The notes under the pieces were generated by a model, which was not told where the DNA came from, searched no databases, and saw only the letters and a program-made list of their open reading frames with translations. Source: Brucella thiophenivorans (GTDB taxonomy: Bacteria; Pseudomonadota; Alphaproteobacteria; Rhizobiales; Rhizobiaceae). Taken from it: a stretch of 64,000 nucleotides of DNA. The first letter of the stretch is position 1, and the number at the start of each line of letters is the position of its first letter. Shown piece by piece: positions 26,481-44,288 of this stretch. The stretch spans positions 372,001 through 436,000 of the forward strand of contig NZ_NNRJ01000051.1 of assembly GCF_002252445.1 (NCBI RefSeq). Reading direction: 5' to 3'. Made by a program: the position numbers and the translations under genes.

Positions 26481-26600
26481 TGTTTGTTCCCTTATCGCAC
26501 TAGCATCATATAACTCTTGCAGATGCGTATTATTCTAGTCGCCTCTCGCAAGGAGTCAGCCTCATCATTTGGTTGGCAATTAATCTTAAACTCCGGAAGT

Positions 26601-29078
26601 CTAACGTCGCCGCATCCCTAATCCGCCATGACGCCCGCCAGAACGAGAGAATCCACCACCCCTGAACTCTGGATGAAACTCCATGCGATGACCAAGCGAC
26701 TGTCGATTACCAAACTCACGTCCCGCCCGATCAATCGAAAGATGATCAGGCGCGACCAATCTTTGTCGCGAGCCTAACTGTTTGACTGGCTGTCCCTGGG
26801 CATGGCGTTCCCGGAGCGAACTCGCGGCGTCTGGGTGTTTGGTCGCAAAATGTTGACCGCGTTGTTTCAAATCATCCGCAGAAGGTTTTTGTACTGGGGA
26901 CCAGCCATCATCGGAATGCTTTTGCCATTGTCCTGCCTGGCGACGATATACATTCCCGTCACGACCAGCATAGACATCTCCACCCGTTCCACTGCCTGCG
27001 ACAAAACCGTGATTGCCGCCGGACGTCCGCCAGCGAACACCTTCTTCTCCACCTGGAGCTTCACCGCCATGGGCACGAACCCAATCTGATCCATGACGAA
27101 CGCTTGCCGTACCCCACGAACCATAAATATTGTGTCCGCCATGCGCGAAGGCAGCAGTTTCGGTTCGTGGATTGTAAGCTGCTACGAATCCTCTATCACC
27201 TAAAGGACCAGCCATGCCGCCGCCGCGTACATAGTTTCCGGTGATTGGGTTGTAAGCGGCTCCACCCGCAATCCCGCGATAAGGTCCATAGGCATAACCA
27301 TAGCGACCGAATGTGCCGCGAGCCGGATTATAGAAAGCACCCACACCATAGCTCATTGGACGTGGATAATAAGGCCAGAACCCACCCGCCCATCCGTAAT
27401 CCCAATACGCTGGATAATACCAGCCAGTGCCGTAAACAATGGCATCCCATGCAAGATAAGCACCAAGATAACCCATTGTATAGCCAAACCAGACCGCATC
27501 ATCCTCAGTCTGATAGATCCGGACATAAGTCACATTATAAACGGGCGACGTGGGAGGGATTTTATAGATATCCTCGGGAATGGATCGAGCTACAGCAAAA
27601 GGACCTTGGGGAGTGTCACCGACGAACCATATGCCCTGTTTAAGGACGTAGTATTTGTCACCAACCTTGATTACCTGATCATTGGTATTGACCGCAAATT
27701 CAAGGGAAGTACCTTTGATTGGCTCAAACTTCGGATCGCCACTGTATGTGACGTCGACCTTTACTGAACCATCGGTTGCTACACGAGCGGTCTCCGGGAT
27801 GCTCGCGCGAAGCCGCGCTTCGGCGCTTTCAGAAGTCCCAGGAACCGAAGCACGGACGGTGTAATAAGGTGCATCATCGGGAATATTGCGGAAATCCTCC
27901 GGTAGATCAGGAGTTGCGAACGTCCAAGGTGCTTCCAGTGCGGCTGCCGAAAACCACCTTCCTGAAAGAAGCACATACCACTTCTTGTCTGCCTTGCTGA
28001 AGAAGACATCGTTCTCACTATTGGAAACCCATTCCAATTGAGTGCCAGAGACCGCTTCAAGCGTGGGTTTGCCTTTGAACTGGATCAATTCGGCTGGCTT
28101 GTCGGAATAAACTACGCTTGGTTTATTGCCATCCTCAAACGCAACAGGCGGAATCGCGGTGCGCGCGTCTTTCCAGTTTTCTTCGTCCGGAAGTTTGGAA
28201 ATGAGTTCCGGTAGGCTCGTTACAGGTTCCCATGTGGCTGTAAGATCTTGAGAGGTAAGCCAAGACTTACCGTCGCGCAGATAGAGCGACTTGTCTGCAT
28301 CAATCTGGAACAGGTCCCAGTTGGTGTTGACGACAAAGGAAAGTCCATCCACGCCCTTTACCGGAGCATAAACTGCCTTACCGTCAGTCTGAACCAATAT
28401 GGCGGGACTTTCGGAAACCTGAATGATTGGTGGCTCTGTATTCAGCCCCTTGACATCCTCTGTCCTTCGATAATCGGCAAGGCTCGCCGTCAGACCCTCT
28501 ACGGGCAGGGTTACAGTGCCGACCGGAATGAGTTTGCCTATGTCCAGCGACAAATCGGCGAGCTTCTTTCGATCAAGGGCCGAGAAATTAAGCTCTGTCA
28601 CCCTGATATCACTCAGCTCTATCTGTCCATTGGCTCCGTCATTCGTCGTTTTTCCAACAATGCTGACTATGCCAAAGACCGGTTTGGCCTGTTTGTCTAC
28701 CTTGATTTCGGTTGCAATTTGCGCGGAAAGCTCAGCATATTCTTTCCACTCGGTGATCTGAGGTTGATAAAGGACAATTTCAGAGCCCTTGTCCGTAGAG
28801 AACGAGCGAGGCCACCCCGGCCGTTCAGTATCAGCTTCCTTAACATACTGTCCGCTGACGAAACCGTTCTTGCCTTGATAGGTCACTGAACACCAGGAGC
28901 CACCTTCATTACATGCGCCGAGCTGCACTTCAGCTCTCTCAGGGATTGATCCGGCAGTGTTGTACCCCGTTCCCGGCCCCACACGAAGGTTTACTTTGGC
29001 TGTAGTAACACCAGGCGCTGCATGCGCAGTAGATACGGCCAAAGAGGCTACTGAGATATATAGGGCCAATTTGCGCAT
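26601..29078 (-). CDS. Large exported SH3-domain protein with Gly/Tyr-rich C-terminus
   Basis: 825 residues from ATG 29078 (MRKLALYISVASLAVSTAHA), preceded by GAAGGAG; the longer frame to 29096 is unneeded. Signal peptide, then a bacterial SH3 repeat (TTAKVNLRVGPGTGYNTAGSIPERAEV), then repeated units built on a theme like LEAVSGTQLEWVSNSENDVFF / FEPIKGTSLEFAVNTNDQVIK / YAPVKGVDGLSFVVNTNWDLF, at least three copies. A Gly/Tyr/Pro-rich segment and a Gly/Arg-rich tail follow. Probably periplasmic or surface-exposed. No enzymatic motif seen. It stands alone, flanked by the DUF1254 block. Confidence 0.75.
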   Translation of the reverse strand: MRKLALYISVASLAVSTAHAAPGVTTAKVNLRVGPGTGYNTAGSIPERAEVQLGACNEGGSWCSVTYQGKNGFVSGQYVKEADTERPGWPRSFSTDKGSEIVLYQPQITEWKEYAELSAQIATEIKVDKQAKPVFGIVSIVGKTTNDGANGQIELSDIRVTELNFSALDRKKLADLSLDIGKLIPVGTVTLPVEGLTASLADYRRTEDVKGLNTEPPIIQVSESPAILVQTDGKAVYAPVKGVDGLSFVVNTNWDLFQIDADKSLYLRDGKSWLTSQDLTATWEPVTSLPELISKLPDEENWKDARTAIPPVAFEDGNKPSVVYSDKPAELIQFKGKPTLEAVSGTQLEWVSNSENDVFFSKADKKWYVLLSGRWFSAAALEAPWTFATPDLPEDFRNIPDDAPYYTVRASVPGTSESAEARLRASIPETARVATDGSVKVDVTYSGDPKFEPIKGTSLEFAVNTNDQVIKVGDKYYVLKQGIWFVGDTPQGPFAVARSIPEDIYKIPPTSPVYNVTYVRIYQTEDDAVWFGYTMGYLGAYLAWDAIVYGTGWYYPAYWDYGWAGGFWPYYPRPMSYGVGAFYNPARGTFGRYGYAYGPYRGIAGGAAYNPITGNYVRGGGMAGPLGDRGFVAAYNPRTETAAFAHGGHNIYGSWGTASVRHGSDWVRAHGGEAPGGEEGVRWRTSGGNHGFVAGSGTGGDVYAGRDGNVYRRQAGQWQKHSDDGWSPVQKPSADDLKQRGQHFATKHPDAASSLRERHAQGQPVKQLGSRQRLVAPDHLSIDRAGREFGNRQSLGHRMEFHPEFRGGGFSRSGGRHGGLGMRRR

Positions 29079-29176
29079 GTGAGGCTCCTTCGCCACTCTA
29101 TAAACGCCATTGTTTCACAATCTGTTGTTGCCAGACGTCAACGCTGTCTTTGATTTGCATGCTGTATGAGAATTTT

Positions 29177-29200
29177 CCTGCCGCTTAACCCAGCGGCAGG
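29177..29200. terminator. Perfect hairpin in the 29079-29430 gap
   Basis: CCTGCCGCT and AGCGGCAGG form a perfect 9-bp stem around TAACCC. There is no long T-run on either side, so factor-independent termination is uncertain; a role as a transcript end for the minus-strand gene or a regulatory hairpin is possible. Confidence 0.4.
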
Positions 29201-29229
29201 GTAAGTATTTATCCTTTAACCACTTCAAT

Positions 29230-29400
29230 TTAACCCGGTCGCCAGCTCTTATCGAAGAATGTTTGCAGCGGGCTGTAAAGTCGCAGCATCAACCACCAGC
29301 TTCTTTTCGGATCAGTTTCAACCAGATTCTTTCCTTAGCGCCATCTGGCTTTTGCGCCGCAAAATGGATTGTTGTGGATCCATATGAGTTTGCCTCGGCT
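29230..29400 (-). pseudogene. Remnant of a fourth DUF1254/DUF1214 gene (C-terminal end)
   Basis: On the minus strand the 3' part reads RSWWLMLRLYSPLQTFF and DKSWRPG then a stop, which is the typical end of a DUF1214 domain. Just upstream, in another frame, IHFAAQKPDGAKERIWLK reads like the preceding strand. One frameshift thus separates the two pieces and nothing of the N-terminal two thirds is present. Its position beside three intact members shows local duplication and loss. Confidence 0.7.
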
Positions 29401-29430
29401 GCCTCAAATTTCTAGGACCAAACAGTCAAT

Positions 29431-30222
29431 CTATTTGCCAACAGCAAACTGAAAATTAACTCCGGCGAATATCTGCCATTCGGGTTGCCCGGTACCATGA
29501 CTAAACACGGTATACTGCGGCTCAACAAAAGCATTCATTGTAACTTTGTCGTTGAGCGGAATAACCTTACCAACACCGAATCCGACGGGGATCGAATAAT
29601 CTCCATCTTCCAGATCGAAGTTCCAGGTCGCTGACGAACGTAGATAAAACCCATCTTTCAAATTGATATTCAGTATTGGTTGTACCGTCGCTAATGAGAC
29701 TTCGTCGCGATCACCATCACCAGCAAAAGACGCCTGATAAGTAGCAAGACCGCCAACCAACCCCCACGATTGGGGCGCTATCGCCACACCTGCCAGACCC
29801 GCCTGCCATTTTCCCGCGCCTAGAACATCATCAGATGCAGTGGGGAGAACCAATAATGGTCCAGCGCCGAACGACACTTCTTTCCCTGGAAACATGAACA
29901 AGTCCATAAGCGTAAGATCGCCAAGACCAGTGGTTTCACCATCAGGGAATGTAGGGGCAGTAGCAATAGGCAGAGTGAAACGAAAAAGCTGCGGAGCACC
30001 AAACAGATTCGATGGTATTAACCCACGTAAAAGAAACTGATTTGCATATTTGTCGGGTACATCAGTCAACTCCGGAACATAGTAATTATGAAAGTTGACG
30101 GTGATTTTGGGAGTAAGCGGATTGTTCGCCTCATTCACAGCGTCGTGCTCTTGTGCCGCTACTGAGAAAATAGGAACAGTCGACGCTGCGATAAACGCTA
30201 GACAAATTTTTAAGTGCTGCAT
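29431..30222 (-). CDS. Outer-membrane beta-barrel protein (MetA/transporter-like)
   Basis: 263 residues with signal peptide (MQHLKICLAFIAASTVPIFSV, cleaved near AAQ). The mature chain alternates polar and hydrophobic residues with turns (GLGDLTLMDLF, FGAGPLLVLPTAS, GKWQAGLAGVAI) and ends in Phe-rich strands (WQIFAGVNFQFAVGK), typical of a barrel. It belongs to the same broad PF13557-like group as the SphA-type proteins here but is shorter and distant. Stands at the border of the DUF1254 block. Confidence 0.72.
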   Translation of the reverse strand: MQHLKICLAFIAASTVPIFSVAAQEHDAVNEANNPLTPKITVNFHNYYVPELTDVPDKYANQFLLRGLIPSNLFGAPQLFRFTLPIATAPTFPDGETTGLGDLTLMDLFMFPGKEVSFGAGPLLVLPTASDDVLGAGKWQAGLAGVAIAPQSWGLVGGLATYQASFAGDGDRDEVSLATVQPILNINLKDGFYLRSSATWNFDLEDGDYSIPVGFGVGKVIPLNDKVTMNAFVEPQYTVFSHGTGQPEWQIFAGVNFQFAVGK

Positions 30223-31965: not shown

Positions 31966-32088
31966 ATGAAATCTTTCCGAATACCCGTCCGTCTCTGCCG
32001 CTTTTCACTCCTCAGTGCAATTAACTCTAGCGAGCAAACAGAATGCGATATTTCCAACAAACGTCTGAAAGCTTGGCACTGCGACTAG
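31966..32088 (+). CDS. Short ORF overlapping the protease start (leader peptide or frameshifted N-terminus)
   Basis: 41 codons from ATG 31966, with GAGGAGG placed seven bases upstream, a far stronger signal than that of the protease gene. The frame ends at TAG 32086-32088, inside the first 15 codons of the AAA protease ORF in a different frame. Either a real leader peptide translates into the protease, or the true protease N-terminus lies here and a frameshift separates them. Confidence 0.4.
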   Translation: MKSFRIPVRLCRFSLLSAINSSEQTECDISNKRLKAWHCD

Positions 32089-33917
32089 CCGTTGCGCATC
32101 TAACACGACAATTGCGTAAACAAGGTTTGCATGATTTTTTAGCAGGCCGCGTGTTTAATCTGATTGTGACAGCGGAAAACGCTGATGACCTGGAACTATA
32201 TGAAAAAGCCATTGGGCGACTAAGCTATCTGTGTTCGGCTAAGCCCTCACAACGTAGCATCATCCAAAGAAGCGGAAAGACAAAGCAGTCCGAAGATTTA
32301 GATGACCAACACCTTATCTACAAACAAACGCTTCATTTCTCACACAGTGCCAACGCATTGTCGAAACAGGTGATCATGGAAGCCGATCACATCATCGATA
32401 TGAAACTTGACGGCACCCTTTGTGAAGCCATCGCCAGGGAAACTTTAAAATCTCCTCCGCGTTTCTCGACGCTTCCCAAACCTTCACCATTTCCACTGCG
32501 CGTTTTGGCATCCATGATCGTTCAGTCCTGGAATGATCAAGATGTTCAGCACAAGCTTGATAAGATCATGCGTGGCGCAATTCATAAAGCTAAAAACATG
32601 AAAAGCGATCTCAATCTTTATACCATTCCTGGTTATGGGCAGGCAGCTGAATGGGGAAAAACGCTCGCAGAAGATTTGGCAACTTACATCAAAGGAGATC
32701 TTGGCTGGGAGGACATTGATCGCGGCGTACTGCTGTGCGGCCCCCCAGGGGTTGGCAAAACACTGTTTGCTCGTGCGCTTGCAGGAACCTGCAATGTGCC
32801 ATTATTCGCTCACTCGTTGACCGAATGGCAAGCTCAAGGCAGTTTGGATGACCTACTCAAAGCAATGCTCAACGCGTTTGATAAAGCTAAAAGCGAGGCT
32901 CCTTGCATCTTGTTTGTTGATGAATTGGATAGCTTCGGAGATCGATCACAGCTTTCGGGACCAAATGCGAACTACTCACGACAGGTAATCAATGCATTTC
33001 TTCAATGCTTAGACGGGCTGGACGGAAGAGAAGGAGTTATTGTCGTCGCAGCGACCAACAATTTCGACAAGATTGATCCAGCCATCCTACGTTCAGGCAG
33101 AATTGAGCGGCATATTAACATCAGCCTGCCAAATGCCAGTGGTAGGGAAAAAATTCTAAGGTATCATCTGCGAGATGATCTAAAGGACTGTGATATTTCC
33201 GACATTGCCACTGGGCTTGATGGACTATCAGGTGCAGACATCGCTCGTTTCATCAGAGAAGCCCGCAGCCGAGCAAGATCACGAAAAGAGCCTCTGGTTA
33301 TTTCAGACCTTTCAATCGCTATTCCCAAGCCTCGCCCTGTCCGTATTGATGATATTCGCAGAACAGCAATCCACGAAGCTGGCCACGCGATTGTTGCCGA
33401 CGAATTATACGACATTACAGGCATCAAAGCCGTCGCGGTTCAGATTAAGCGAAATGTTCAGGATGGCGATAGCAACCTCGGAGGCACAAAGATGCATATT
33501 CGAGCAGACAGGGTTCTGACGACAAAAGCTGAATATTTAGCTCGGATTTGCACGCTACTGGCTGGTCTTGCCGCCGAGAAAGCGATGTTAGGAGCCGCAT
33601 CAGACGGCGGTGGAGGCGGCAAACATTCTGATCTAGCCGAGGCAACAAAAATTGCAATTCGTATCGAAGCCTCATTCGGCTTGGGTAACGGTCTGGCATT
33701 CTTAGCTACCACGAATTTTTGCGACGAAACCCTGTTGCGTCAAAATTCCCACCTCGAACAGCGTGTGAATGAAATTCTTCAAACCCAGTTTGACAGAGCG
33801 GTCGGCATAATCGAGAAAAAAGCGAAAGCCCTTTCCTCAATTGCCGCGAAGCTTGAACGTTATTCGGCACTCAACGAAAGGCAGTTGAAAAGAATCTTTC
33901 AGAAGAAGGTAGCCTAG
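32043..33917 (+). CDS. Soluble FtsH-like AAA+ ATPase with M41 zinc-protease site
   Basis: 624 residues. AAA+ module: Walker A LCGPPGVGKTLFARALA (about 232), Walker B CILFVDELDSFGDR (about 289), and AILRSGRIERHI in the second region. The protease module shows IHEAGHAIVADEL (zinc HExxH, about 443) and GGKHSDLAEATKIA (third ligand Asp, about 529), as in FtsH/M41. Unlike FtsH there are no N-terminal membrane segments; a 200-residue unrelated N-terminus is present instead. No convincing Shine-Dalgarno precedes 32043. Ends with a hairpin terminator. It probably unfolds and degrades, or remodels, a substrate connected with the adjacent genes. Confidence 0.85.
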   Translation: MRYFQQTSESLALRLAVAHLTRQLRKQGLHDFLAGRVFNLIVTAENADDLELYEKAIGRLSYLCSAKPSQRSIIQRSGKTKQSEDLDDQHLIYKQTLHFSHSANALSKQVIMEADHIIDMKLDGTLCEAIARETLKSPPRFSTLPKPSPFPLRVLASMIVQSWNDQDVQHKLDKIMRGAIHKAKNMKSDLNLYTIPGYGQAAEWGKTLAEDLATYIKGDLGWEDIDRGVLLCGPPGVGKTLFARALAGTCNVPLFAHSLTEWQAQGSLDDLLKAMLNAFDKAKSEAPCILFVDELDSFGDRSQLSGPNANYSRQVINAFLQCLDGLDGREGVIVVAATNNFDKIDPAILRSGRIERHINISLPNASGREKILRYHLRDDLKDCDISDIATGLDGLSGADIARFIREARSRARSRKEPLVISDLSIAIPKPRPVRIDDIRRTAIHEAGHAIVADELYDITGIKAVAVQIKRNVQDGDSNLGGTKMHIRADRVLTTKAEYLARICTLLAGLAAEKAMLGAASDGGGGGKHSDLAEATKIAIRIEASFGLGNGLAFLATTNFCDETLLRQNSHLEQRVNEILQTQFDRAVGIIEKKAKALSSIAAKLERYSALNERQLKRIFQKKVA

Positions 33918-34010: not shown

Positions 34011-34700
34011 TTACGGCGTTTGCAGGATCGAAGGAATTGCACTTCCGTCCCACTTAAATGTTATATGATCTCCCTGACGCACATTCTGTATGACGGAAGG
34101 TCGGAAAACCGCAATACACTCACCACCGGGACGTCTCACGGATGGATAAATCAAGCCGTTACCACCGCTCGCGAATATCGATTTAGCCAATGTCTGCCCC
34201 ACTGGGTAAGCAATCGCAGTGTCAGGCTGAAGGCTTTCGTGATCTGGCATACTGCGGAGGTCATGAAAGTTCGACGTGAAACCCGCTAATAATTCTCGAT
34301 AGTGGCCAATGTCATCAAAGCACCCTGCCGCTGCTAATGCGCGTGTACGGTGGAAGATAATCTCTGCTTGCGATGTTAGTTTTGCGTCGATGCCGAATGC
34401 GCAATACCACGCCCCCCTATCTTGATTGTTGAATCTGTTTCCAGATGGCCGGGCGTGACAGAAGGCGGCGTTTATCAACGTGTATCCATATCCAAATGAT
34501 GCGTTCAGAATTTCACTTGGATCGACTTCTGCAGGCAACGCAACTGTGCTCATGCGTGCCGAAGTTGCTCCTTCAAGCTTGGTCAGTATCTCGATTTCTT
34601 CATCGTCATCCGCCAGAGGTGCGACGGCTTCTTCTTTTATATAAGCTGTTGATATTAGACGAATTGTTGCTGGATCTGTAAAGTCAGTATTAGGGATCAT
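34011..34700 (-). CDS. RES-domain toxin
   Basis: 229 residues. Conserved RES positions are visible: an Arg in NRFNNQDRGAWYCAF, a Glu in SQAEIIFHRT, and a Ser in GLIYPSVR. RES toxins degrade NAD+ (established for characterised members). The gene overlaps the antitoxin gene by four bases, in the usual antitoxin-then-toxin order. The family is confident; NAD+ cleavage for this member is inferred. Confidence 0.82.
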   Translation of the reverse strand: MIPNTDFTDPATIRLISTAYIKEEAVAPLADDDEEIEILTKLEGATSARMSTVALPAEVDPSEILNASFGYGYTLINAAFCHARPSGNRFNNQDRGAWYCAFGIDAKLTSQAEIIFHRTRALAAAGCFDDIGHYRELLAGFTSNFHDLRSMPDHESLQPDTAIAYPVGQTLAKSIFASGGNGLIYPSVRRPGGECIAVFRPSVIQNVRQGDHITFKWDGSAIPSILQTP

Positions 34701-35104
34701 AAACCACCACGAAGTCCGTCAATGTATCGCCGTGTTTGGATCATTGCAGGAATTCCCCCTTCAATCATAAATTGGGTGGGCATTTTTCCACCAAAGATGG
34801 AATCTGTATTTGGTCGTTTTGGCCATCCATAGGTTAGAGGGCCGTTGAAGAACAACCGCAACCCCTTAAAAATCCCAACAATGAGGCTGGCTCTAGTCTT
34901 CTTGTCTTGATCTAGCTTGCCTCTGAAGATTCCAGACTTCATACGATTCCATGTCGCGATAGGCACGCCGAAAAGGTCCGCCGCCTCTTGGTTTGTTAAC
35001 TCCCAATGGGAAAAAGTACGTACTATGGCTTTGACGATGACGGCATCCTCATCTTTGCCTGACTTCAGTGTGTTATCCGAATGTGCTGCAGATACGTAGG
35101 TCAC
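34697..35104 (-). CDS. Xre/MbcA/ParS-type antitoxin of the RES toxin
   Basis: About 135 residues from GTG 35104, six bases after AGGAG; the frame is open upstream to 35146 but runs through the palindrome below. N-terminal helix-turn-helix (LTNQEAADLFGVPIATWNRMKSG) and a C-terminal toxin-binding part (FNGPLTYGWPKRPN, FGGKMPTQFMIEGG) are the Xre-MbcA-ParS features. It neutralises the RES protein and probably autoregulates the pair. Confidence 0.82.
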   Translation of the reverse strand: MTYVSAAHSDNTLKSGKDEDAVIVKAIVRTFSHWELTNQEAADLFGVPIATWNRMKSGIFRGKLDQDKKTRASLIVGIFKGLRLFFNGPLTYGWPKRPNTDSIFGGKMPTQFMIEGGIPAMIQTRRYIDGLRGGL

Positions 35105-35129
35105 ACTTGTTTCTCCTGATGTACTTATT

Positions 35130-35145
35130 TGTATCATATGATACA
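35130..35145. promoter_or_regulatory. Perfect palindrome, probable Xre operator
   Basis: TGTATCATATGATACA is a perfect 16-bp palindrome lying 25 bp upstream of the antitoxin start. Its position fits autoregulation of the RES-Xre operon by the helix-turn-helix protein. Confidence 0.6.
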
Positions 35146-35359
35146 CTAATGCAAATTAATTTCAAGTCCGCATTATGGGACAAGATTGTTGGACGCGTTG
35201 ATCTGGATCAGATTCACCCTTTCTCAGGTCGCTCGCTAGTTGTTATGAAATTAGAGATTGTGAAGACCTAGGCTAAAAAAAAACGAGCCGAGCGGTCTAT
35301 GACCACGAATGGCAACCTCTGGACCAGGCGAAGTGACAACCCATCCCAATGTTGCCGCG

Positions 35360-35523: not shown

Positions 35524-35885
35524 CGGAATTCAGTTCACCAAACGGACCCGAGACATCTACGATTTTGACCACATCTTCAATTGGGTCTGCGACGAAAACG
35601 GCATCGAGCATCGGTTGACCAAGGTGAAACATCCCTGGACGAATGGGTCAAGTTGAGCGGATGAACAGAACCATCAAAGAGGCTACCGTAAAGCGCTTCC
35701 ATTACGATGACCACGCCCAATTGCGAACGCACCTCAACGATTTTGTCACCGCTTACAATTTCGGTCGCCGCCTAAAGACACTCACAGGCCTTACTCCATA
35801 CGAATTCATCTGCAAATGCTGGACAAAAGAACCCGAACGTTTCAGGTTAAATCCGATCCATCAAATCGGGACTGAACACCTAGCA
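35523..35885 (+). pseudogene. IS481-family transposase C-terminal fragment
   Basis: Reads [20 protein letters not shown] ... [13 protein letters not shown], then, after a +1 frameshift near 35645, [20 protein letters not shown] ... LKTLTGLTPYEF. This is the IS481 catalytic C-terminus (the DDE glutamate lies in QVERMNRT). The N-terminal two thirds is missing and the frame is broken, so it is inactive. It is joined directly to an IS110 fragment. Confidence 0.75.
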
Positions 35886-35915
35886 TCTCTCTTGGGGATC
35901 AAAATAGCTATTCAT

Positions 35916-35932
35916 TTTACCGTTACGTACTT
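35916..35932 (+). promoter_or_regulatory. Copy 1 of a shared 17-bp motif
   Basis: TTTACCGTTACGTACTT, identical to 39062-39078. It lies 100 bp upstream of the exported-protein gene at 36033. See findings for the regulon argument. Confidence 0.5.
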
Positions 35933-36032
35933 TTCCAAAACAGGAGGAGCGTGCATATCATGCATAATAATATGCCTTTCTGATGATCTTCGAAGAAGGC
36001 ACGCTGCGAGGAAAAGAAAGAGTAGCGATAAA

Positions 36033-36707
36033 ATGAATAGCGATTTTGGACGCTCAGGAAGCCCCTCCCTTGTTATGTTTATTGCTGCAATTTCCATTGC
36101 GGTAGCGGGAACAATTGAAACCGCCATGGGAGAGGACAGATTGGCTGGCTTTCCTTCTCTCGTATTAGGGGGGCAAACAACGACAGCCCAAAACCAACAG
36201 TTTCAGTCGCCTTTTGACAACCTCATAGACGCAGGCTCATTCAAAATTGTGCTCGAAAAAACTGCTATGGCCGATATTCGCGATACTTTTGGAGGATCGC
36301 TGCAATCTCATACTCTGCCCGATGCCTCGGCCAGTTGGCTTTGTTATGAGTTGATTGACAACAATCTGAAGAGAAGAATCTGGTTCATTGCCGAAGGTGT
36401 CAATCCGAGCGGCGGTTGCCCGACGCCTGTGAACTTTGTTTCTACCGAATTGGTTGATGATCATATTAAGGGGTGTGACGCGCCCAATATTGATTTGGCG
36501 GCCATCGTACTTCCCGTTCCCGCGTTAAAAGATGACAGCCAAATGCTCGGTGAGCGCTTTGGTGCCGTTCCTGAAAACGGAATGGTTCGTTACTCTAATG
36601 AAAGAAGAAACGAAAACGACGAGACTATAGTTCAGTCGCTCGTATATCGTTTGCAGGGTGGAAAAATTAACGCGATAGCATTTTCTCAGGCAACATCCCA
36701 ACGCTAG
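36033..36707 (+). CDS. Exported hypothetical protein
   Basis: 224 residues from ATG 36033 (MNSDFGRSGSPSLVMFIAAIS), a signal-peptide-like start with Ala-rich core and probable cleavage after ETAMG. The same frame is open far upstream, but that part is the IS481 wreck, so it is excluded. The mature protein has WLCYELIDNNLKRRIWFIAE and CDAP, with three cysteines, two of which may pair in the periplasm. Family unknown. Carries the shared motif upstream. Confidence 0.65.
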   Translation: MNSDFGRSGSPSLVMFIAAISIAVAGTIETAMGEDRLAGFPSLVLGGQTTTAQNQQFQSPFDNLIDAGSFKIVLEKTAMADIRDTFGGSLQSHTLPDASASWLCYELIDNNLKRRIWFIAEGVNPSGGCPTPVNFVSTELVDDHIKGCDAPNIDLAAIVLPVPALKDDSQMLGERFGAVPENGMVRYSNERRNENDETIVQSLVYRLQGGKINAIAFSQATSQR

Positions 36708-36915
36708 ATTGTATCGATATAATATTTAATCATGTTATTTACGCGTTAAAGTATCAGAACGTCTTATTCATTCAATCACCTTTTAATTTTGATTAGAATT
36801 TAATCTGGCAGCGTAATTATATAAACTAATTTTTCTTTCTACTAGATCGTATATCCGACCTTCAACCGATGCGTCTATTGTAGATGACTGAATGATACTG
36901 GGGCAATGGAGCAAA

Positions 36916-37200
36916 ATGGGAACAGAAAAAGAGAGTGTCCCAATCATGTCGTCAAAAGCAAAGCGGGGACTCTGGAAACTCATGATGAGATTGCCTGCAC
37001 TGCGTGGCGAAATTCAAATACTTGCTAACCAGCATGAAACGCTGCACGACCTTTGTGAAGCCTACGAGGAAGCCACCGAAATGCTTATTTCGATCAGATT
37101 GAGCCAAAAAATTGATCAAAATCTACTCAACGAATATGTAAACACCTGCAATGAAATTGAAAATGATATCGTAAATTACTGTACAACTCTGAAAGATTGA
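36916..37200 (+). CDS. Small helical hypothetical protein
   Basis: 94 residues from ATG 36916, four bases after GGAG. The body is a regular helical hairpin pattern (EIQILANQHETLHDLCEAYEE, EIENDIVNYCTTL) with no signal peptide. Unknown family; lies just before the TPR gene. Confidence 0.5.
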   Translation: MGTEKESVPIMSSKAKRGLWKLMMRLPALRGEIQILANQHETLHDLCEAYEEATEMLISIRLSQKIDQNLLNEYVNTCNEIENDIVNYCTTLKD

Positions 37201-37353
37201 CAAAATCACAATTAGGGACGTCCCCATGGAATTACAGGTTATTTATTGGTGATAGCCTTAAAGTAGAATTCGCAATAGTAGTATTGACTCATTTAAGTAA
37301 CTCGTTATTCTCGGAATCCTGGTAAGTTCTTATGTTTTTGCTGGGGATGAGCT

Positions 37354-39045
37354 ATGAAAGCTGATCTTGCCGAGGGATCTGACGCGCCCATTAGTGACGC
37401 TGTCGCACAATCGACATTAGATGATTTGTTGGCCGACACGCGTTTTCGCGTGACGGAACGCGGGAAGTCGATAATAAAATACATCGCTTCTCATTATTTC
37501 TCTGGAAGCCTCGACGGGATCAAGGGCTATAATATAGCTATTGATGTTTTGGGGCGTCCCGCCAGTTTCGATCCATCCAATGATCCAATAGTTCGAATAG
37601 AGCTCAGCCGCTTGCGTACGGCGCTATTTCAGTACTACGAGGCCTATGGCCATGAACTGCATATGGCGGTCGATATCCCCAGAGGCAAATATACGATAAC
37701 CTTCACCAACCGAGAGAAGCATTTAGAACGGACAGGAATTAATTCTGACGCGGAGGTTCAGGGTTTGCCAACACACTCCGTCCAAACAGAGCATTATAGA
37801 TTAAAATTCAATTCCAATCTCATATTGTCGCTCGCGGCGGTACTTGCCTTAGTGTTGGTTGTGATTAATCTACGGAGCACTCCTTTAGGCACAACAAAGC
37901 CGCTGATCAACATCAACATGCATGCCAACGACCAAAACCTGCGTGATGAGGCAAACCAGATCCGAGACGCGTTAATAACGGCGTTGACCCAGTATAATAC
38001 GTTAACAATCCAGTCCTCGAATTTTGAGAACGATAATACCAGAGCGCTCAATTACGAGATAGAAATGAAGTATTATCAGGACGATGGGAAGAAGAGTGTT
38101 TGGTGGGCGGTACGGGACGTGGACTTGTCCGAAATTCTACAATCGGGAATAGATTCAGTGCCAGAGCAAAGCCAGTCTGCATCAAGCATTCGTGAGGCAA
38201 TTGTCCCAGTTTTGGCCGCACATTTCGCCACTTCACGCAGCGCAATCAATTTGTCAGAACTCAAAAAATCCGATCCTCATGATGTTGGCAATGCTTGTTT
38301 ACTGCGTGCCGAACAGATACCCCGAACCATAATTCCTTCAAGCATGCGCGACGTCCTTAATTGCCTGGAGCGTACGTTGCAAAGCAATCCCGATGACAGC
38401 GATGCAAACGCTGCACTCGCGCAGGCCCTTTTATTTTCCGCAGATGGCAAAATCGATACAGTTGCCATGGAACGCAGCCGGGAATTGGCTCGTCGTGCCG
38501 TCAGGATCTCCCCACAGTCTGATCGCGCACTTACAGCCATGATGCTCTCTCAGTTTTATTCAGGAAAAGTTGACGCTGCGATTGATATCGGGCGTAAGGC
38601 ATTGTCGAATAATCCCAATAACCCCACGACCTTGGGATTGTTTGCGTGGATTTTGTTTACGACTGGCAACTGGGAAAAAGCGATCGAACTTACAAAATCA
38701 GCTGAGCGTGTAACGTCTGTGACACCGCCAAGCGTTCAACTGGTCCTCGCATTTGACGCCTACCGACAAGGTGACTGGTCACGGGTGGCAAGCCTCGCAC
38801 AACAAACGAACGGCGAAGAAAAATTAATTACGGCGTTGCATATTGCTGCACTTGGACAATTGGGGTCGCCTGACGCCTTAATTCAATTGAACGACGTGCA
38901 ATCTGACAATCCGGATTTTATTAGCCAAATCAATATGCTTTTAGCGTATGAGCGCATGGTCGTACCACTACGACAGCAGCTACTTCAAGGTTTGAACAAG
39001 GCCAGTGCGGATGGCTCAAGAATAGTCGTTAGTGGAGCAATATGA
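37354..39045 (+). CDS. Membrane-anchored TPR protein with DNA-binding-like N-terminal domain
   Basis: 563 residues. The N-terminal ~110 residues (RFRVTERGKSIIKYIASHYF, KGYNIAIDVLGRPASFDPSN, PIVRIELSRLRTALFQYYEA) match a domain seen at the start of many Rhizobiales TPR/adenylate-cyclase-like proteins and thought to be wHTH-like. A membrane segment follows (LILSLAAVLALVLVVINL, about residues 150-168). The C-terminal part has TPR-type repeats (NPDDSDANAALAQALLFS, NPNNPTTLGLFAWILFTTGN). The layout resembles CadC/ToxR-type regulators with an external sensor. GGGGATGAGCT precedes ATG 37354. It may regulate the neighbours. Confidence 0.7.
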   Translation: MKADLAEGSDAPISDAVAQSTLDDLLADTRFRVTERGKSIIKYIASHYFSGSLDGIKGYNIAIDVLGRPASFDPSNDPIVRIELSRLRTALFQYYEAYGHELHMAVDIPRGKYTITFTNREKHLERTGINSDAEVQGLPTHSVQTEHYRLKFNSNLILSLAAVLALVLVVINLRSTPLGTTKPLININMHANDQNLRDEANQIRDALITALTQYNTLTIQSSNFENDNTRALNYEIEMKYYQDDGKKSVWWAVRDVDLSEILQSGIDSVPEQSQSASSIREAIVPVLAAHFATSRSAINLSELKKSDPHDVGNACLLRAEQIPRTIIPSSMRDVLNCLERTLQSNPDDSDANAALAQALLFSADGKIDTVAMERSRELARRAVRISPQSDRALTAMMLSQFYSGKVDAAIDIGRKALSNNPNNPTTLGLFAWILFTTGNWEKAIELTKSAERVTSVTPPSVQLVLAFDAYRQGDWSRVASLAQQTNGEEKLITALHIAALGQLGSPDALIQLNDVQSDNPDFISQINMLLAYERMVVPLRQQLLQGLNKASADGSRIVVSGAI

Positions 39046-39061
39046 AGTTTGAGCCAATGAA

Positions 39062-39078
39062 TTTACCGTTACGTACTT
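39062..39078 (+). promoter_or_regulatory. Copy 2 of the shared 17-bp motif
   Basis: TTTACCGTTACGTACTT, identical to copy 1, 79 bp upstream of the SphA-type gene start at 39157. Confidence 0.5.
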
Positions 39079-39156
39079 CGTAAAATCCCTGCTCTTGTTA
39101 CAGTCAATTACGTCACTTTAGAACTATTGCGTAGCGACTGGCTTAAGGGGATATGC

Positions 39157-40140
39157 ATGATTATGATGAGCAAACTCAGGTACGGCTCGCTAATCGCAAT
39201 TTTAACAACAGCGCTTCCAGGTCAGCTTCACGCGGCTGAGGGTGGAGCTGGTTTTTATTTGCTGGGCTCGAAAGGGGCAGCGGCAGCTATCACTCCGCCG
39301 CCTGGATTGTACTTTCAGAACGATCTCTACTTCTATCGGGGCGACCTCGGCGGCAACAAACAGTTGCCAACAGGGGGACGCTTAGCCGTTGGCGTTGAAG
39401 GCAGTGCTGTCATCGAGATCCCAACCTTGATATGGATCGCCCCAGAAATGGTGTTGGGTGGAAATCTTGGTCTGAGTACAACTGTACCCATCGGATGGAA
39501 AAGAACAGAAGCTGACGCTACTCTTGCCAGACCATCAGGACGTAACATAACAGGTGCGGTCAGCGACACGGCCTTCACAATCGGCGATCCATTGGTGGGA
39601 GCCTTTGTTGGATGGCATGCAGGCAATTTCCATTATCAAGTTGGTACGCTTGTGAATATTCCAATCGGTGATTACCAGGATGGTGAGATCTCAAATATCT
39701 CTTTCAACCATTGGGGTGCGGATATCTTTGCCGCAGCAACATGGATGGACCCAACGATCGGCTGGGATATTTCTGGCGTGGTCGGAATGACATTCAATGC
39801 CGAAAATCCGGCAACAGACTACAAGACTGGAAATGAGCTCCATTTTGAATGGGCTGCCGTCAAACACTTCAACGAGAAAATTGATGCGGGTCTTGTCGGC
39901 TATTACTATCAGCAGGTTTCTGGTGATAGTGGCGAAGGTGCCAATCGTCCCTTCAAGGGACGAGTTGCTGCGATCGGCGCAACCATTGGGTATAATTTTA
40001 TGCTAGCCGAAACACCCATGGCGGCGCGTGTAAAGTATTTCCATGAGTTTGCAGCGGAAAACCGCGCTGAGGGGGACGCTTTCTATTTAACGCTATCCAT
40101 GCCGTTAAACTTCAAGAAGACAAACGCCGCCTCCGACTAG
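39157..40140 (+). CDS. SphA-type outer-membrane protein (MetA phenol-degradation family), copy 2
   Basis: About 327 residues from ATG 39157, six bases after AAGGGG; the frame from 39127 has no such signal. Signal peptide (ILTTALPGQLHAAE), beta-barrel pattern, and a close match to copy 1 (GGAGFYLLGSKG, NPATDYKTGNELHFEW, KYFHEFAAENRAEG). Substrate unknown. It sits between the TPR gene and the sulfatase genes and carries the shared motif. Confidence 0.85.
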   Translation: MIMMSKLRYGSLIAILTTALPGQLHAAEGGAGFYLLGSKGAAAAITPPPGLYFQNDLYFYRGDLGGNKQLPTGGRLAVGVEGSAVIEIPTLIWIAPEMVLGGNLGLSTTVPIGWKRTEADATLARPSGRNITGAVSDTAFTIGDPLVGAFVGWHAGNFHYQVGTLVNIPIGDYQDGEISNISFNHWGADIFAAATWMDPTIGWDISGVVGMTFNAENPATDYKTGNELHFEWAAVKHFNEKIDAGLVGYYYQQVSGDSGEGANRPFKGRVAAIGATIGYNFMLAETPMAARVKYFHEFAAENRAEGDAFYLTLSMPLNFKKTNAASD

Positions 40141-40147
40141 GAGGCGG
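40127..40147 (+). terminator. Rho-independent terminator after sphA-type gene
   Basis: CCGCCTCC and GGAGGCGG form a perfect 8-bp stem around GACTA, followed by a T-rich stretch (TTATTTTATTTTTC). The stem includes the last codons and stop of the gene. It also separates the convergent phosphatase gene. Confidence 0.75.
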
Positions 40148-40156
40148 AATGTTATT

Positions 40157-41140
40157 TTATTTTTCAAAGGCATATATTTTTTTCCAGTCATTCTTCATAT
40201 CGATAACGAGCCAATTGCGATTGTTCGCCTCGTTTAGCGCTTTGTCCAATTTACCAAACTCCGACTGACGATCATACGCATATTCGCGCTCAGCATCGGT
40301 GTGATGCACGATAATTCCCAGTGAGGGCCGCTGTTTCCCCGAAGTAACCCAACGCAGCATCTCATAATCGCCATCAGAATTACCGGCGACGAAAATCGGT
40401 CGTTTTCCAATCAATCTATTAATGCCAACAGGCTTGCCTGCACCATCATCAATGAAGTCGATTTCAGGGAGACGCTTCAATACAGGCTCATCGCCATTCA
40501 GTGCATATTGTGTTTTGATGCTACTTCCGATGACTTGCTCCGGAGGAATGCCATATGCCTCTTGCGTCATTGGTCGCATAAACTCCACACCACCGCCCGA
40601 AACAATATAAGTTTTAAAGTCATTTGAGCGCAGATAATCGAGTAGCTCCCTCATCGGAAGAAACGTCATCTTATTGAAGGGCTGTTTTGTCTTGGGATGT
40701 TTTGCAGATGCGTACCAGTCTTTTACGATCTCGCCAAATTCATCTGTTGTCATGCCAGCATGCGTTGTCATACCCAGTTCCACAACGCCCTTTTCACCCG
40801 ATTTGGCGATGCCCTTCAAGTCACCCGCAAGAATCGATTTGAATGGTTCTTTCTCATTCCATTCGGGATGTTGCGGCGCGAGAGCTTTAACCCGATCAAG
40901 CATAAAACCCAACTGAAAGTAAAAGGGCTGCTCAGTCCAGAGTGTGCCGTCATTATCGAAAACGGCGATGCGCTCTTCTGGTGGAACAAATTGAGACCCT
41001 GAAGGATCTACAACCTTCTCCACAAACGCAATGATTGCATCTTTGCTGGCTCCATCGTTCCACGATGGTAGATTGTCCGCCCAACTGGTGATTGGATGAA
41101 TAAAAGTCACCAAAGCCAACATAAGGAAATAACGCTTCAT
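40157..41140 (-). CDS. Exported HAD-superfamily phosphatase
   Basis: 327 residues with a signal peptide ending near TSWA. The catalytic DxDGT motif is in AVFDNDGTLW (D62, D64), the Thr/Ser motif is in TYIVSGGG, and the acidic motif is AGNSDGDYEMLRW. This is a periplasmic acid-phosphatase-like member. It follows the formylglycine-generating enzyme gene by 60 bp on the same strand, so it probably belongs to the same operon. Confidence 0.85.
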   Translation of the reverse strand: MKRYFLMLALVTFIHPITSWADNLPSWNDGASKDAIIAFVEKVVDPSGSQFVPPEERIAVFDNDGTLWTEQPFYFQLGFMLDRVKALAPQHPEWNEKEPFKSILAGDLKGIAKSGEKGVVELGMTTHAGMTTDEFGEIVKDWYASAKHPKTKQPFNKMTFLPMRELLDYLRSNDFKTYIVSGGGVEFMRPMTQEAYGIPPEQVIGSSIKTQYALNGDEPVLKRLPEIDFIDDGAGKPVGINRLIGKRPIFVAGNSDGDYEMLRWVTSGKQRPSLGIIVHHTDAEREYAYDRQSEFGKLDKALNEANNRNWLVIDMKNDWKKIYAFEK

Positions 41141-41200
41141 CGTATCCTCCTTGAGTAAAGCGCATCCTAAAAACAGGTGAAGAGGTTTTCGGGAAACAGT

Positions 41201-42160
41201 CTATGAAAAGCGTTTAATACAGCGAAAACCAACATGGCTCGTTGATGTATCTTCGGGTTCTGCGTGTCTGGCTGCTGGTCTGTAGCGTCGGCAATAATTG
41301 GGCGCACATAGATGGGAGCCACCTTTAAGGACACGGCGTGGTACTAATATTTGGGGCTGCCTAGGATCATAACTATTGGACGGGTCAATTCGTCTCGGGT
41401 TCGTTGGAATACAGCAAGCTTTTGCCGCAGGCTCGTTGTGTCGCGTGGACCAAAAGTCAACTGTCCATTCCCACACATTTCCAATCATATCATACAGACC
41501 ATACCCATTTGCCGGATATGACCCGACAGGTGACGTGCGCTCTTTTCCGTTGGGCTTTAAACTTTTTGTAGGGAATGCACCCTGCCAAGTATTGGCCATA
41601 GGTGCACCTTCAGGCATGAATTCAACGCCCCATGCATACTCGACGTTCTCCAAACCACCCTTTGCAGCAAATTCAAAATCGGCCTCGGTGGGGAGCTCTA
41701 ACCCTGCCCAATCAGCATAAGCTTTCGCGTCTTTGTAAGCTACGTGGACGACAGGATGGTCCAGCTTTCCGCGAATATCGCTTAATCCGCCCAGCGGTCG
41801 TTTCCAGTAAGCGCCGAACTTAAACTTCCACCATTGTGCCAAATCGTTGTTTTCTATTTGTTTTGGCGGCGTAAAAACAAGCGATCCGGGCCTCAACATT
41901 TCTGGTATCGCGCCGGGATAATCCTCCGCTTTGGGTGCAATTTCGGCCATGGTAATATAACCGGTATCCTTCACGAACTGCGCAAATTGTCGGTTCGTAA
42001 CAGGCGTGGTGCTCATCCAAAAGCCATCCACCGTAACAGGGTGTACAGGCGCTTCCTCTGGATAATGGTTGTCAGACCCCATCATGAATGTACCGCCCGA
42101 AATCCACGCCATGCCGTCAGGTGTAACAGACTTGAAATCCGTATTAATGGCAGACGTCAT
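41201..42160 (-). CDS. Formylglycine-generating enzyme (sulfatase-modifying factor)
   Basis: 319 residues, GGAGG before ATG 42160. FGE fold signatures (ISGGTFMMGSDN, LPTEADFEFAAKGGL, MIGNVWEWTVDFW) and the active-site cysteine pair C285 and C290 in HLCAPNYC, matching the C-x4-C of characterised FGE. It oxidises a cysteine of sulfatases to C-alpha-formylglycine. The divergent sulfatase at 42645 is the evident substrate. No signal peptide is visible, so it acts in the cytoplasm before export. Confidence 0.9.
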   Translation of the reverse strand: MTSAINTDFKSVTPDGMAWISGGTFMMGSDNHYPEEAPVHPVTVDGFWMSTTPVTNRQFAQFVKDTGYITMAEIAPKAEDYPGAIPEMLRPGSLVFTPPKQIENNDLAQWWKFKFGAYWKRPLGGLSDIRGKLDHPVVHVAYKDAKAYADWAGLELPTEADFEFAAKGGLENVEYAWGVEFMPEGAPMANTWQGAFPTKSLKPNGKERTSPVGSYPANGYGLYDMIGNVWEWTVDFWSTRHNEPAAKACCIPTNPRRIDPSNSYDPRQPQILVPRRVLKGGSHLCAPNYCRRYRPAARHAEPEDTSTSHVGFRCIKRFS

Positions 42161-42212
42161 GGAAGCCTCCGAGCATCGTCAGATGAATATTGAAAAAAGC
42201 GAAGTCGCCTTC

Positions 42213-42229
42213 AAGTACGTTACTGTTAA
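42213..42229 (-). promoter_or_regulatory. Copy 4 (inverted) of the shared motif, upstream of FGE gene
   Basis: TTAACAGTAACGTACTT on the minus strand, 14 of 17 bases as in copies 1 and 2, 52 bp upstream of the FGE start in the correct orientation. Between 42161 and 42644 there is no gene, only this and copy 3. Confidence 0.4.
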
Positions 42230-42501
42230 TGATCTGAAAAAGTCATTGATGACATTCCCTCAAACTCGTTGCACAAACAAAATCGGTCGCCTGATTTCAG
42301 GCTGAGTAGATTGGTTCCTTACAGGCTTCGCATGCGAGGCTGACAGGCGTTGTTCTCACGCCGCAGGTCCGCCTACCCTAGGATGTCATAACCCTATCAC
42401 TCGTGAATATTTATGGAGCGTTCAGCAATCCGGACAACGGTATCGCGTTCGTCATAGCACGAACATTTCCGGTTGCCGTCGCGCTCCCTGTTACCCTGCT
42501 T

Positions 42502-42518
42502 GTTACTGTTGCGTACTT
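42502..42518 (+). promoter_or_regulatory. Copy 3 of the shared motif, upstream of the sulfatase gene
   Basis: GTTACTGTTGCGTACTT matches copies 1 and 2 at 14 of 17 positions, 126 bp upstream of the sulfatase start. Confidence 0.4.
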
Positions 42519-42644
42519 ACTAATCCTTCTTTTCAGACTGACATTCTCAGCGTGAATTCCTATTGCCCTTTCAAGGCGACCTCAAAGGTCGCGCATCGAG
42601 GAGAGCGCCATGTTTATTGACAGCAGGAAAATCGGGAGGCGTTC

Positions 42645-44288
42645 ATGAGCAGCCTTTCAAGGCGTATTTTGAGCGTGGGAGCTGCGCTAGCTGTAGCTTT
42701 AACGACAACATCACTCGTCCCAATTCGTGCACAGGCACAGACGGCCCCAGCTGCCGCCCCAGCGTCCGATAATTCGAACAGCTCAAAGCCTAATATTCTT
42801 GTTATCTTTGGTGACGATATCGGGCAAACCAACATTAGCGCCTATTCAATGGGCCTTGTTGGTTACAAAACACCGAATATTGACAGCATCGCCAAAGCCG
42901 GAATGATGTTTACGGACTACTATGCAGAGAACAGCTGCACTGCCGGTCGATCAACGTTCATCACCGGGCAGACTTGTTTGCGAACAGGACTTTGCAAAGT
43001 AGGCGCTCCGGGCGCTCCGGTTGGGCTTCAGCCCGGAGACATGACCATTGCACAGGCGCTAAAGCCACTCGGCTACGCGACTGGCCAGTTCGGCAAGAAC
43101 CATCTTGGTGACCGCGACGAATACCTGCCAACAAATCATGGGTTCGATGAATTTTTTGGTAATCTTTACCATCTCAATGCAGAAGAAGAACCAGAGGCTC
43201 CTTATTGGCCCAAAGGCGACAAAGAATTCCTGAAAGCCTATAATCCGCGTGGTGTTATAAAGGCCTCTGCCGACGGCAAGATTGAGGACACCGGTCCGCT
43301 GAACAAAAAGCGGATGGAGACAATCGACGATGAAACGACGGCTGCGGCTATCGACTTCATGGGTCGCCAGGTTCAGCAAAAGAAGCCGTTCTTCACCTGG
43401 ATGAACGCAACGCGAATGCATCTTTTCACTCATGTTCGCGAGTCAATGCGCGGTCAGAGCGGGATGCAAGGCAATGATTATGCGGATGGCATGATCGAGC
43501 ATGACGGGCACGTTGGCAAGCTGCTGAAAGCTCTTGATGACCTCGGAATTACCGAGAATACAATTGTCGTCTACACCACCGATAACGGTCCGAACCAATT
43601 CTCCTGGCCTGACGCAGCAACCACTCCGTTTCGGAGCGAGAAAGATACCAATTGGGAAGGTGCGTTCCGCGTACCGGCCATGGTAAGATGGCCCGGCCAT
43701 GTAGCGCCTGGACAGGTTGTCAACGGTGTGGTTTCCGGGCTGGACTGGTTTCCAACATTGCTGGCAGCAGCAGGAGATCCGGATGTAAAAGGCCGCCTCT
43801 TGAATGGCTGGCAACCGTCCGGCAGCAGCACAACCTTCAAAAACCACCTTGATGGCTATAACCAGCTCGACTATCTGACGGGAAAGTCGGACAAGAGCGC
43901 AAGAAACGATTTCTATTACTTTGACGATGACGGCGGTCTTGTCGCCACACGTTTTGACGACTGGAAAGTGGTGTTCAAGGAGCAGCCAGCAGCTGGAGGC
44001 TTTGCTGTGTGGCAAACCCCCTTCGTGACGTGGCGTATTCCAAAGTTGTTCAATCTTCGCATGGATCCCTACGAACGGGCTGATACAGTTTCCGATCAGT
44101 ATAATGATTGGGTAGTCCGTAACGACTACCTTTTGGTCAAAGGCCAGCTGCAAGGGGCAGCCTTTCTGGAAACATTCGTTAAGTTCCCACCAAGCCAACG
44201 CGTAGCCAGCTTCAACATCGAAGGTGTGCGCGCTGAAGTGGACAAGGCGATCGACCAGTCTTTCAAAGACCGGGGCATTGAGAAATAG
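42645..44288 (+). CDS. Type I arylsulfatase (exported)
   Basis: 547 residues. GGGAGG precedes ATG 42645. Signal peptide ending near RAQAQ. Metal-binding IFGDDIGQTN at the N-terminus; modification site ENSCTAGRSTFITGQ, with Cys98 the formylglycine candidate; FGKNHLGD and TTDNGPNQFSW as further active-site strings. The core reads C-T-A-G-R rather than C-x-P-S-R, a variant found in an alphaproteobacterial subfamily. Cleaves sulfate esters; substrate unknown. It is paired with a dedicated FGE, phosphatase and outer-membrane protein, so the locus may scavenge sulfate esters. Confidence 0.9.
   Translation: MSSLSRRILSVGAALAVALTTTSLVPIRAQAQTAPAAAPASDNSNSSKPNILVIFGDDIGQTNISAYSMGLVGYKTPNIDSIAKAGMMFTDYYAENSCTAGRSTFITGQTCLRTGLCKVGAPGAPVGLQPGDMTIAQALKPLGYATGQFGKNHLGDRDEYLPTNHGFDEFFGNLYHLNAEEEPEAPYWPKGDKEFLKAYNPRGVIKASADGKIEDTGPLNKKRMETIDDETTAAAIDFMGRQVQQKKPFFTWMNATRMHLFTHVRESMRGQSGMQGNDYADGMIEHDGHVGKLLKALDDLGITENTIVVYTTDNGPNQFSWPDAATTPFRSEKDTNWEGAFRVPAMVRWPGHVAPGQVVNGVVSGLDWFPTLLAAAGDPDVKGRLLNGWQPSGSSTTFKNHLDGYNQLDYLTGKSDKSARNDFYYFDDDGGLVATRFDDWKVVFKEQPAAGGFAVWQTPFVTWRIPKLFNLRMDPYERADTVSDQYNDWVVRNDYLLVKGQLQGAAFLETFVKFPPSQRVASFNIEGVRAEVDKAIDQSFKDRGIEK

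Follow-up and report, generated by a model that had tools for sequence, protein, structure and literature searches.

A 64,000-nucleotide stretch of the Brucella thiophenivorans genome (contig NZ_NNRJ01000051.1, positions 372,001 to 436,000; G+C content 48%), referred to below as the window, carries four copies of a 17-letter motif, TTTACCGTTACGTACTT, in front of genes for an exported protein, an outer-membrane barrel, a formylglycine-generating enzyme (FGE) and an arylsulfatase-like protein. Between the first two copies lie a small open reading frame (ORF) and a gene for a candidate regulator, here named REG. The features of this locus, with their window coordinates and strands, are the following:

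35916..35932 (+): site 1, before the exported-protein gene; exact 17-mer, 100 bases ahead of the start at 36033
35953..35958 (+): weak -10-like hexamer of site 1, GCATAT, at motif positions 38-43; failed the strict A2/T6 test
36033..36707 (+): exported-protein gene, ahead of the small ORF and REG; this part matches no Pfam family
36892..37200 (+): small ORF, 102 residues as listed, conserved partner directly before REG
37354..39045 (+): REG, candidate regulator of 563 residues; OmpR-like N-terminal domain, hydrophobic segment at 155-173, TPR repeats
39062..39078 (+): site 2, before the barrel gene; exact 17-mer
39099..39104 (+): -10-like hexamer of site 2, TACAGT
39127..40140 (+): outer-membrane barrel gene (PF13557); counted from its furthest-upstream start codon, although the ATG at 39157 is likelier
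40157..41140 (-): HAD-family hydrolase gene, 60 bases downstream of the FGE gene on the same strand
41201..42160 (-): FGE gene (PF03781, E 3e-76; PDB FGE 6s07, E 7e-63)
42187..42192 (-): -10-like hexamer of site 3, CAATAT
42213..42229 (-): site 3, before the FGE gene; three mismatches to the 17-mer, none to the refined pattern
42502..42518 (+): site 4, before the sulfatase gene; three mismatches to the 17-mer, none to the refined pattern
42539..42544 (+): -10-like hexamer of site 4, TGACAT; strict test passed as 42540-42545 (GACATT)
42645..44288 (+): arylsulfatase-like gene (PF00884; PDB arylsulfatase 7aj0, E 6e-58)
up to 50630: MoxR/Bat-type genes after the sulfatase gene, the Bat-type name coming from annotated relatives

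The motif and the hexamer downstream of it

The initial annotation had reported two exact copies of the motif and two with 14 of 17 letters, each pointing toward a gene, and had argued that chance would not be expected to give an exact 17-mer twice within 3.2 kb. All three statements were borne out. The motif is exact at 35916-35932 (+) and 39062-39078 (+), and has three mismatches at 42213-42229 (-) and 42502-42518 (+); these four copies compare with a mean of 0.09 in 100 shuffles of the window, none of which reached four (0/100). The gaps between a site and the start of the gene at which it is aimed are 100 bases for the exported protein, 48 for the barrel (to its furthest-upstream start codon), 126 for the sulfatase and 52 for FGE. 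When a matrix is made from the four sites, their scores are 23.6-27.3 and that of the next-best window position is 11.3; this gap is partly built in, because the same sites went into the matrix. A search for a degenerate site before the small ORF and REG in the window revealed nothing scoring at least 10, and there was no site scoring at least 10 before a second DUF1254/SH3/barrel cluster at 20503-30222.

In the whole B. thiophenivorans genome, eight positions matched the 17-mer with up to three mismatches, including the four window sites. The reversed-pattern control gave 29 such matches, so the four additional ones are at the chance level. A refined pattern, TWACNGTWRCGTACTT, was derived from relatives after the work on the 17-mer; in the 4.36-Mb genome it matched the four window sites with no mismatch, nothing with one mismatch and 21 positions with two, while its reversed control gave 92 matches with up to two mismatches, above the real pattern. 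As there is no other refined match at 0-1 mismatch, the motif is locus-specific in its own genome, and the genome-wide commonness that had been named beforehand as an argument against it was not observed. The motif consensus reads [G/T]T[A/T]AC-N-GT[A/T]ACGTACTTnC. As to the expectation that orthologous promoters carry the motif, it held for the sulfatase and FGE promoters of both congeners compared, and for the barrel promoter of one of them (score 19.1), the site being weak in the other (14.8 on the four-site matrix). It failed for the exported protein, whose promoter in the two congeners has no motif, the gene being located there directly downstream of the barrel gene.

The surroundings of the motif were compared in a collection of 154 distinct sites, or 150 contexts once near-copies were removed. 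The sources were the window and 92 fetched stretches; 79 of them have a site, and many of the stretches had been selected for the motif. Beyond the motif and its immediate flanks, in which a C two bases after the motif is the most marked, a single element is prominent: A at 39-40 and T at 43-44 in the motif count. An A2/T6 hexamer is present at this fixed offset, which was picked after the conservation profile had been viewed, at 96/153 sites, as compared with 6-28 at 28 other offsets, and its strict form accompanies 3/4 window sites. It looks like a -10 element of a loose, housekeeping-like kind. Read in this way, it places the motif at about -50 to -34, with CTTnC overlapping the -35 region; the alphaproteobacterial -35 sequence is CTTGAC. 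Between site 2 and the barrel start there is also a looser repeat-like stretch, GTTACAGTCAATTACGTCACTT, at 39090-39125, which contains the predicted -10 TACAGT.

The orientation of sites with respect to genes was counted for 147 usable sites and 735 random positions, a qualifying ORF start being sought within 260 bases. A gene start was found only ahead of the site in 70/147 cases and on both sides in 38/147, whereas random positions had a gene start ahead in 174/735 cases. Moreover, 39/147 sites were located inside a long open frame, as compared with 593/735 random positions. The position of the motif at about -50 to -34 fits an activator that contacts the -35 element. A second element at a fixed spacing could also be taken as a sign that the motif is itself the -35 element of alternative promoters recognized by a sigma factor of the extracytoplasmic function (ECF) type. 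We consider this very improbable: a sigma -35 element has 6-7 bases, and the motif, with its 17 mostly nearly invariant positions, is far longer; the -10 is loose and looks like an ordinary housekeeping one; and the annotated plasmid loci described below, whose gene tables are incomplete at source, list no sigma factor. Repression of these promoters by REG, with the site blocking the promoter until a signal comes, is unlikely as well. The polymerase could also be blocked by a site at the -35 region, but a single fixed distance to the -10 suits activation better, because repressor sites vary more in position, and proteins similar to ToxR and CadC, with which REG is compared below, are mostly activators. 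As an IS481-type transposase remnant ends directly upstream of site 1, we also considered whether a mobile element had left the copies of the motif behind as a repeat. The likelihood of this is negligible, and we rejected it: the 150 contexts resemble one another only in the motif with its immediate flanks and in the -10, and the sites precede many different gene families in many genera.

Distribution of the motif and of REG homologues

Beside many REG homologues, in Rhizobiaceae and on a Paracoccus plasmid, the motif occurs in 2-7 copies. The search for REG in 297 genomes of the family returned 129 at E<=1e-10, many of the listed matches covering the N-terminal domain only; a scan of the genome contigs for REG gave two matches only, both irrelevant. 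Twenty stretches around the better REG matches were fetched (19 of 20 kb and one short contig). Nine of them had 2-6 sites scoring at least 16 (L041, L042, L044, L046, L048, L049, L050, L055 and L056), and the other 11 had none. Family-wide, the exact pattern was found at 104 sites in 22 of the 297 genomes, and the reversed control at 10 sites in 9. All the genomes with at least two exact sites (16/297) had a REG homologue at E<2e-30 (16/16), and 272/297 genomes had neither a homologue at that level nor two sites (Fisher p 1.8e-20, with the E cut chosen once the data were seen). Three congeners (G016, G119 and G294) have neither REG nor the motif, and outside the family a single site was found in 1/376 genomes of the order, as compared with 18 control sites.

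A tblastn search with REG identified 271 plasmid records, chiefly of Rhizobium (97) and Sinorhizobium (97). We read 17 plasmid loci picked by REG similarity (11, then 6) and one picked by sulfatase DNA similarity. Among the former, 11 had 3-7 canonical sites, 4 had the R. leguminosarum variant described below, and 2 had no sites: S. meliloti pSymA, with a remote REG paralogue, and R. etli p42a, with a broken REG. Canonical sites numbered 7 in R. tumorigenes, 6 in R. rhizogenes, 5 in Neorhizobium, 4 in A. tumefaciens AF1/95 and in Ensifer canadensis, and 3 in each of two Pseudochrobactrum loci, in Phyllobacterium, Rhizobium sp. NXC24 and A. pusense, and in Paracoccus yeei, which belongs to another order. 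Permuted matrices gave 0.1 match per 12 plasmid loci. The P. yeei plasmid (NZ_CP044082.1; L231) carries the small ORF, REG, the sulfatase gene, MoxR/HAD/Bat genes and three canonical sites, and this presence of the whole module likely reflects horizontal transfer between orders.

A chance origin of the motif is ruled out by the shuffle, genome-wide and family-wide counts. The 17-letter motif is very probably a real promoter element. Judging from the sequences, the four window sites would work as a regulon; the initial description of it as local suits the B. thiophenivorans genome, but is too narrow overall, as other genomes contain up to 20 exact copies and the motif tracks REG.

The tree of 44 REG homologues contains one well-supported clade of 28 members, of which 21 have a strong site within 1.5 kb and one more has a variant. 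A strong site within this distance accompanies only 2 of the remaining 16 REG, both found through the motif. In five loci of the R. leguminosarum type (L119, L122, L226, L227 and L228) the operator has the form GTWACNGTWAC-Ann-CT[T/C], with 3, 3, 3, 4 and 3 copies, respectively. The variant copies of L119, L226 and L227 lie about 90-150 bases before the annotated starts of the REG operon, of the transporter or SH3 gene, and of the arylsulfatase gene. In the REG of these five loci, the putative recognition helix contains LRE[T/S]L, with Glu at position 89 (the L122 copy is short); the listed canonical-site members show A, S or T at this position. As the five loci are close kin, the covariation of the operator and the REG helix counts as one event, not five.

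REG, its small partner and the proposed mechanism

Wherever REG is annotated in the plasmid loci read, it is annotated as a hypothetical protein. We read it as a ToxR/CadC-like one-component membrane regulator. Conservation is highest in its N-terminal 105 residues (mean column identity of 67%, as compared with 45% for the whole protein). A profile of 22 REG N-terminal domains, compared with 31 OmpR-type domains of the same genome and its relatives, scored 29.9 (E 5e-5). The hhalign probability was 67 over 69 columns, with the alignment taking in the SRLR helix and the beginning of the wing, in what was a pairwise test and not a library search. The best of 20 column shuffles scored 15.6, the reversed profile 11.9, and the GntR and TetR control profiles 10.8 and 15.5; the comparison run with the latter two contained ten OmpR rows, one of which (L192) was empty. 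REG has one hydrophobic segment, located in the same region in 23/23 aligned members (the best 19-mer starts at residue 131-166). According to this hydropathy scan, which is not a topology predictor, a single membrane segment separates the DNA-binding part from the C-terminal part, as in ToxR and CadC. REG resembles regulators of the ToxR/CadC type in having a putative OmpR-like N-terminal DNA-binding domain, one membrane segment and a large C-terminal part, but differs from them in that its N-terminal domain is almost beyond the reach of Pfam and its C-terminal part consists of TPR. The motif overlaps the -35 region at a fixed distance from the -10, as in class II promoters of OmpR and PhoB. 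However, PhoB and OmpR sites are roughly 11-base direct repeats, whereas the half-repeats GTWAC of the motif are 6 bases apart and are followed by a distinct GTACTT tail.

The small ORF is a conserved partner of REG. It was found within 900 bases upstream of 26/31 motif-clade REG genes, five of which (L226-L229 and L231) are outside the tree, as compared with 1/17 others (L053). Its product belongs to a family with about 80 conserved residues (RGLxxLMLKLPALRGxLQ...), which marks the REG operons of the motif clade, and has no membrane segment (best 19-mer hydropathy 0.66). A small gene adjoins REG as toxS adjoins toxR in the ToxR/ToxS-like 'co-component' systems treated in PMC9214523. Unlike ToxS, which is periplasmic, the small partner of REG lacks a membrane segment.

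We consider it highly probable that the motif is the binding site of an activator inside a promoter and that REG is this activator. The OmpR-like winged helix of REG would reside in the cytoplasm, a single helix would cross the membrane, and the TPR repeats would be outside, where REG may sense something in the periplasm or envelope. With [G/T]TWACNGTWACGTACTT as its binding site, at about -50 to -34, REG would touch RNA polymerase at the -35 region (CTTnC of the motif), and transcription would start from the fixed -10 located about 20 bases further on. The computations themselves establish the motif, its specificity and conservation, its link with REG and the fixed -10; binding by REG, activation, the orientation in the membrane and the signal are inferred from them. 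The predicted targets in the B. thiophenivorans genome are the exported-protein gene, the barrel gene, the FGE and HAD genes, and the sulfatase gene with the MoxR/Bat genes; in relatives, the REG operon would be a target too, along with genes for DUF1254, SH3 and further exported proteins. In the window, a transcript from site 1 may run through the exported-protein gene and the small ORF into REG, and a feedback loop would thereby be preserved.

Another DNA-binding protein, such as the product of the small ORF, could read the site instead, with REG only signalling to it. The small ORF is nearly as good a marker of the motif clade as REG (the 26/31 and 1/17 given above), and has a sub-threshold Pfam winged-helix match (15.3 bits, with a cut-off of 27). 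However, the two Pseudochrobactrum loci (L117 and L118), with three good sites each, showed no small ORF in the 900 bases before REG. Moreover, it is the N-terminus of REG that is most conserved in this protein and that matches OmpR-type domains at the profile level, and the altered operator is accompanied by a change in the REG helix, in a comparison limited to the REG proteins of those loci. We therefore regard such a division of roles as distinctly improbable.

Several observations weigh against REG acting as an activator through the motif. Site 1 lacks the strict -10 (GCATAT), and among the 147 usable sites 18 have a gene start only behind them and 21 have none within 260 bases. The small ORF and REG in the window have no site, whereas many relatives have one. 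Six of the 28 clade members (L043, L045, L047, L053, L060 and L125) have no site within 1.5 kb; L043, L045, L047 and L060 come from three genomes with 3-5 exact sites elsewhere, L125 is a broken REG copy, and L053 is basal and long-branched. Nine genomes have a REG-like protein at E<2e-30 but fewer than two sites. In G216, with 11 sites, the best REG match is in the outer clade, and a nearer REG copy, beside 4 of these 11 sites, scores in pieces (best 1e-29). In the congener G246, the sites are intact even though its REG (L044:8563-10213) is spread over two reading frames near residue 50. The lone sites of G121 and G191 are less than 100 bases from a REG-family match but point away from it; the remaining four single-site genomes do not rise above the control level. 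As to the protein, the N-terminal domain of the window REG has no Pfam match at E<=1, and Trans_reg_C (PF00486, OmpR type) is matched by only 1/22 REG N-terminal domains, at E 0.22, below the cut-off. The REG N-terminal profile had no match among PDB sequences, and Foldseek found nothing at E<=0.001 with an AF2 single-sequence model of the N-terminus, which was poor (pLDDT 54.9). As the Pfam and PDB matches are missing or sub-threshold and the model is poor, we describe REG as working like regulators of the OmpR/ToxR type rather than as a member of their family.

More tentatively, and with somewhat less than even confidence, we propose that REG and the small protein constitute a new two-part signalling cassette. 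Its membrane regulator would combine a divergent DNA-binding domain with a TPR sensor on the outside and would be tuned by a cytoplasmic partner. The cassette would have its own operator code, which changes together with the recognition helix, would be carried by plasmids between orders, and would command a mobile programme of sulfatases and envelope remodelling. REG and its variant operators also offer a natural system to study the joint change of a DNA-binding protein and its site.

The predicted regulon and neighbouring features

The 150 downstream ORFs, each chosen mechanically as the longest within 450 bases, formed 40 clusters. The largest groups were sulfatases (27), FGE (20), DUF1254 proteins (16) and the small ORF (12, plus 3 of REG), followed by barrels (9), SH3 proteins (8), relatives of the window ORF 29431 (7), HAD (3), MoxR (3) and proteins of the 36033 exported type (2). 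The rest were small clusters and singletons, and four sites had no ORF; some singletons are spurious, as the choice of ORF was mechanical. The recurring neighbours at plasmid loci are the small ORF, a transporter-type barrel, HAD, FGE, arylsulfatase and MoxR/DUF58/DUF4381/VWA/BatD genes, as well as mechanosensitive channels and DUF1254, SH3 and DUF2092 proteins.

The type I Cys-type sulfatase signature is C-x-[P/A]-x-R, and sulfatases of this type are activated by FGE. The CTAGR sequence of the window sulfatase occupies the aligned position of CTSSR in arylsulfatase 7aj0 and fits the Cys-type signature, and the window FGE closely resembles FGEs of solved structure, its C-x4-C region aligning with FGE 6s07; we take this cysteine pair to be catalytic. 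The window has both genes, like other sulfatase and FGE gene pairs, and this pair would have a dedicated shared regulator and operator. To our knowledge, no such regulator and operator for a sulfatase/FGE pair has been reported in rhizobia. Among the matches listed in searches of open-access full texts, there was no description of the motif, the regulator or the regulon (subscription papers and regulon databases were outside the scope), and all the listed matches to the motif letters in open-access papers were primer-type or unrelated by title. As the motif is very probably a real promoter element, occurs in many rhizobia and is tied to REG, it looks like the mark of an undescribed regulon for sulfatases and envelope proteins. 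This provides a candidate regulator and regulon for a widespread rhizobial kit of sulfatase, FGE, DUF1254, MoxR/Bat proteins, barrels and mechanosensitive channels. The operator is highly specific, and therefore its targets can be read from genomes by the pattern alone, which makes the function of the kit and its signal directly testable.

The start of the exported-protein gene was taken as 36033; the open frame given from 35643 fuses this gene to a transposase remnant. This 3' remnant of an IS481-type transposase (35643-35900, +) abuts site 1 and is in frame with the exported-protein ORF. Site-bearing families of other genomes are also represented in the second cluster at 20503-30222, which contains genes of DUF1254 proteins, a second barrel, an SH3 protein and ORF 29431. 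On the other side of the transposase remnant, at 34011-35146 (-), a RES-domain protein is encoded together with an Xre-like helix-turn-helix partner, resembling a RES/Xre toxin-antitoxin pair. Further upstream, at 5469-15304 (+) and 32043-33917 (+), there are defence-like genes, which encode an AAA protein (PDC-S06), a DUF4011/DUF3320 helicase-nuclease (PDC-S37/Hhe-like) and an FtsH-like AAA protein with IetA matches.

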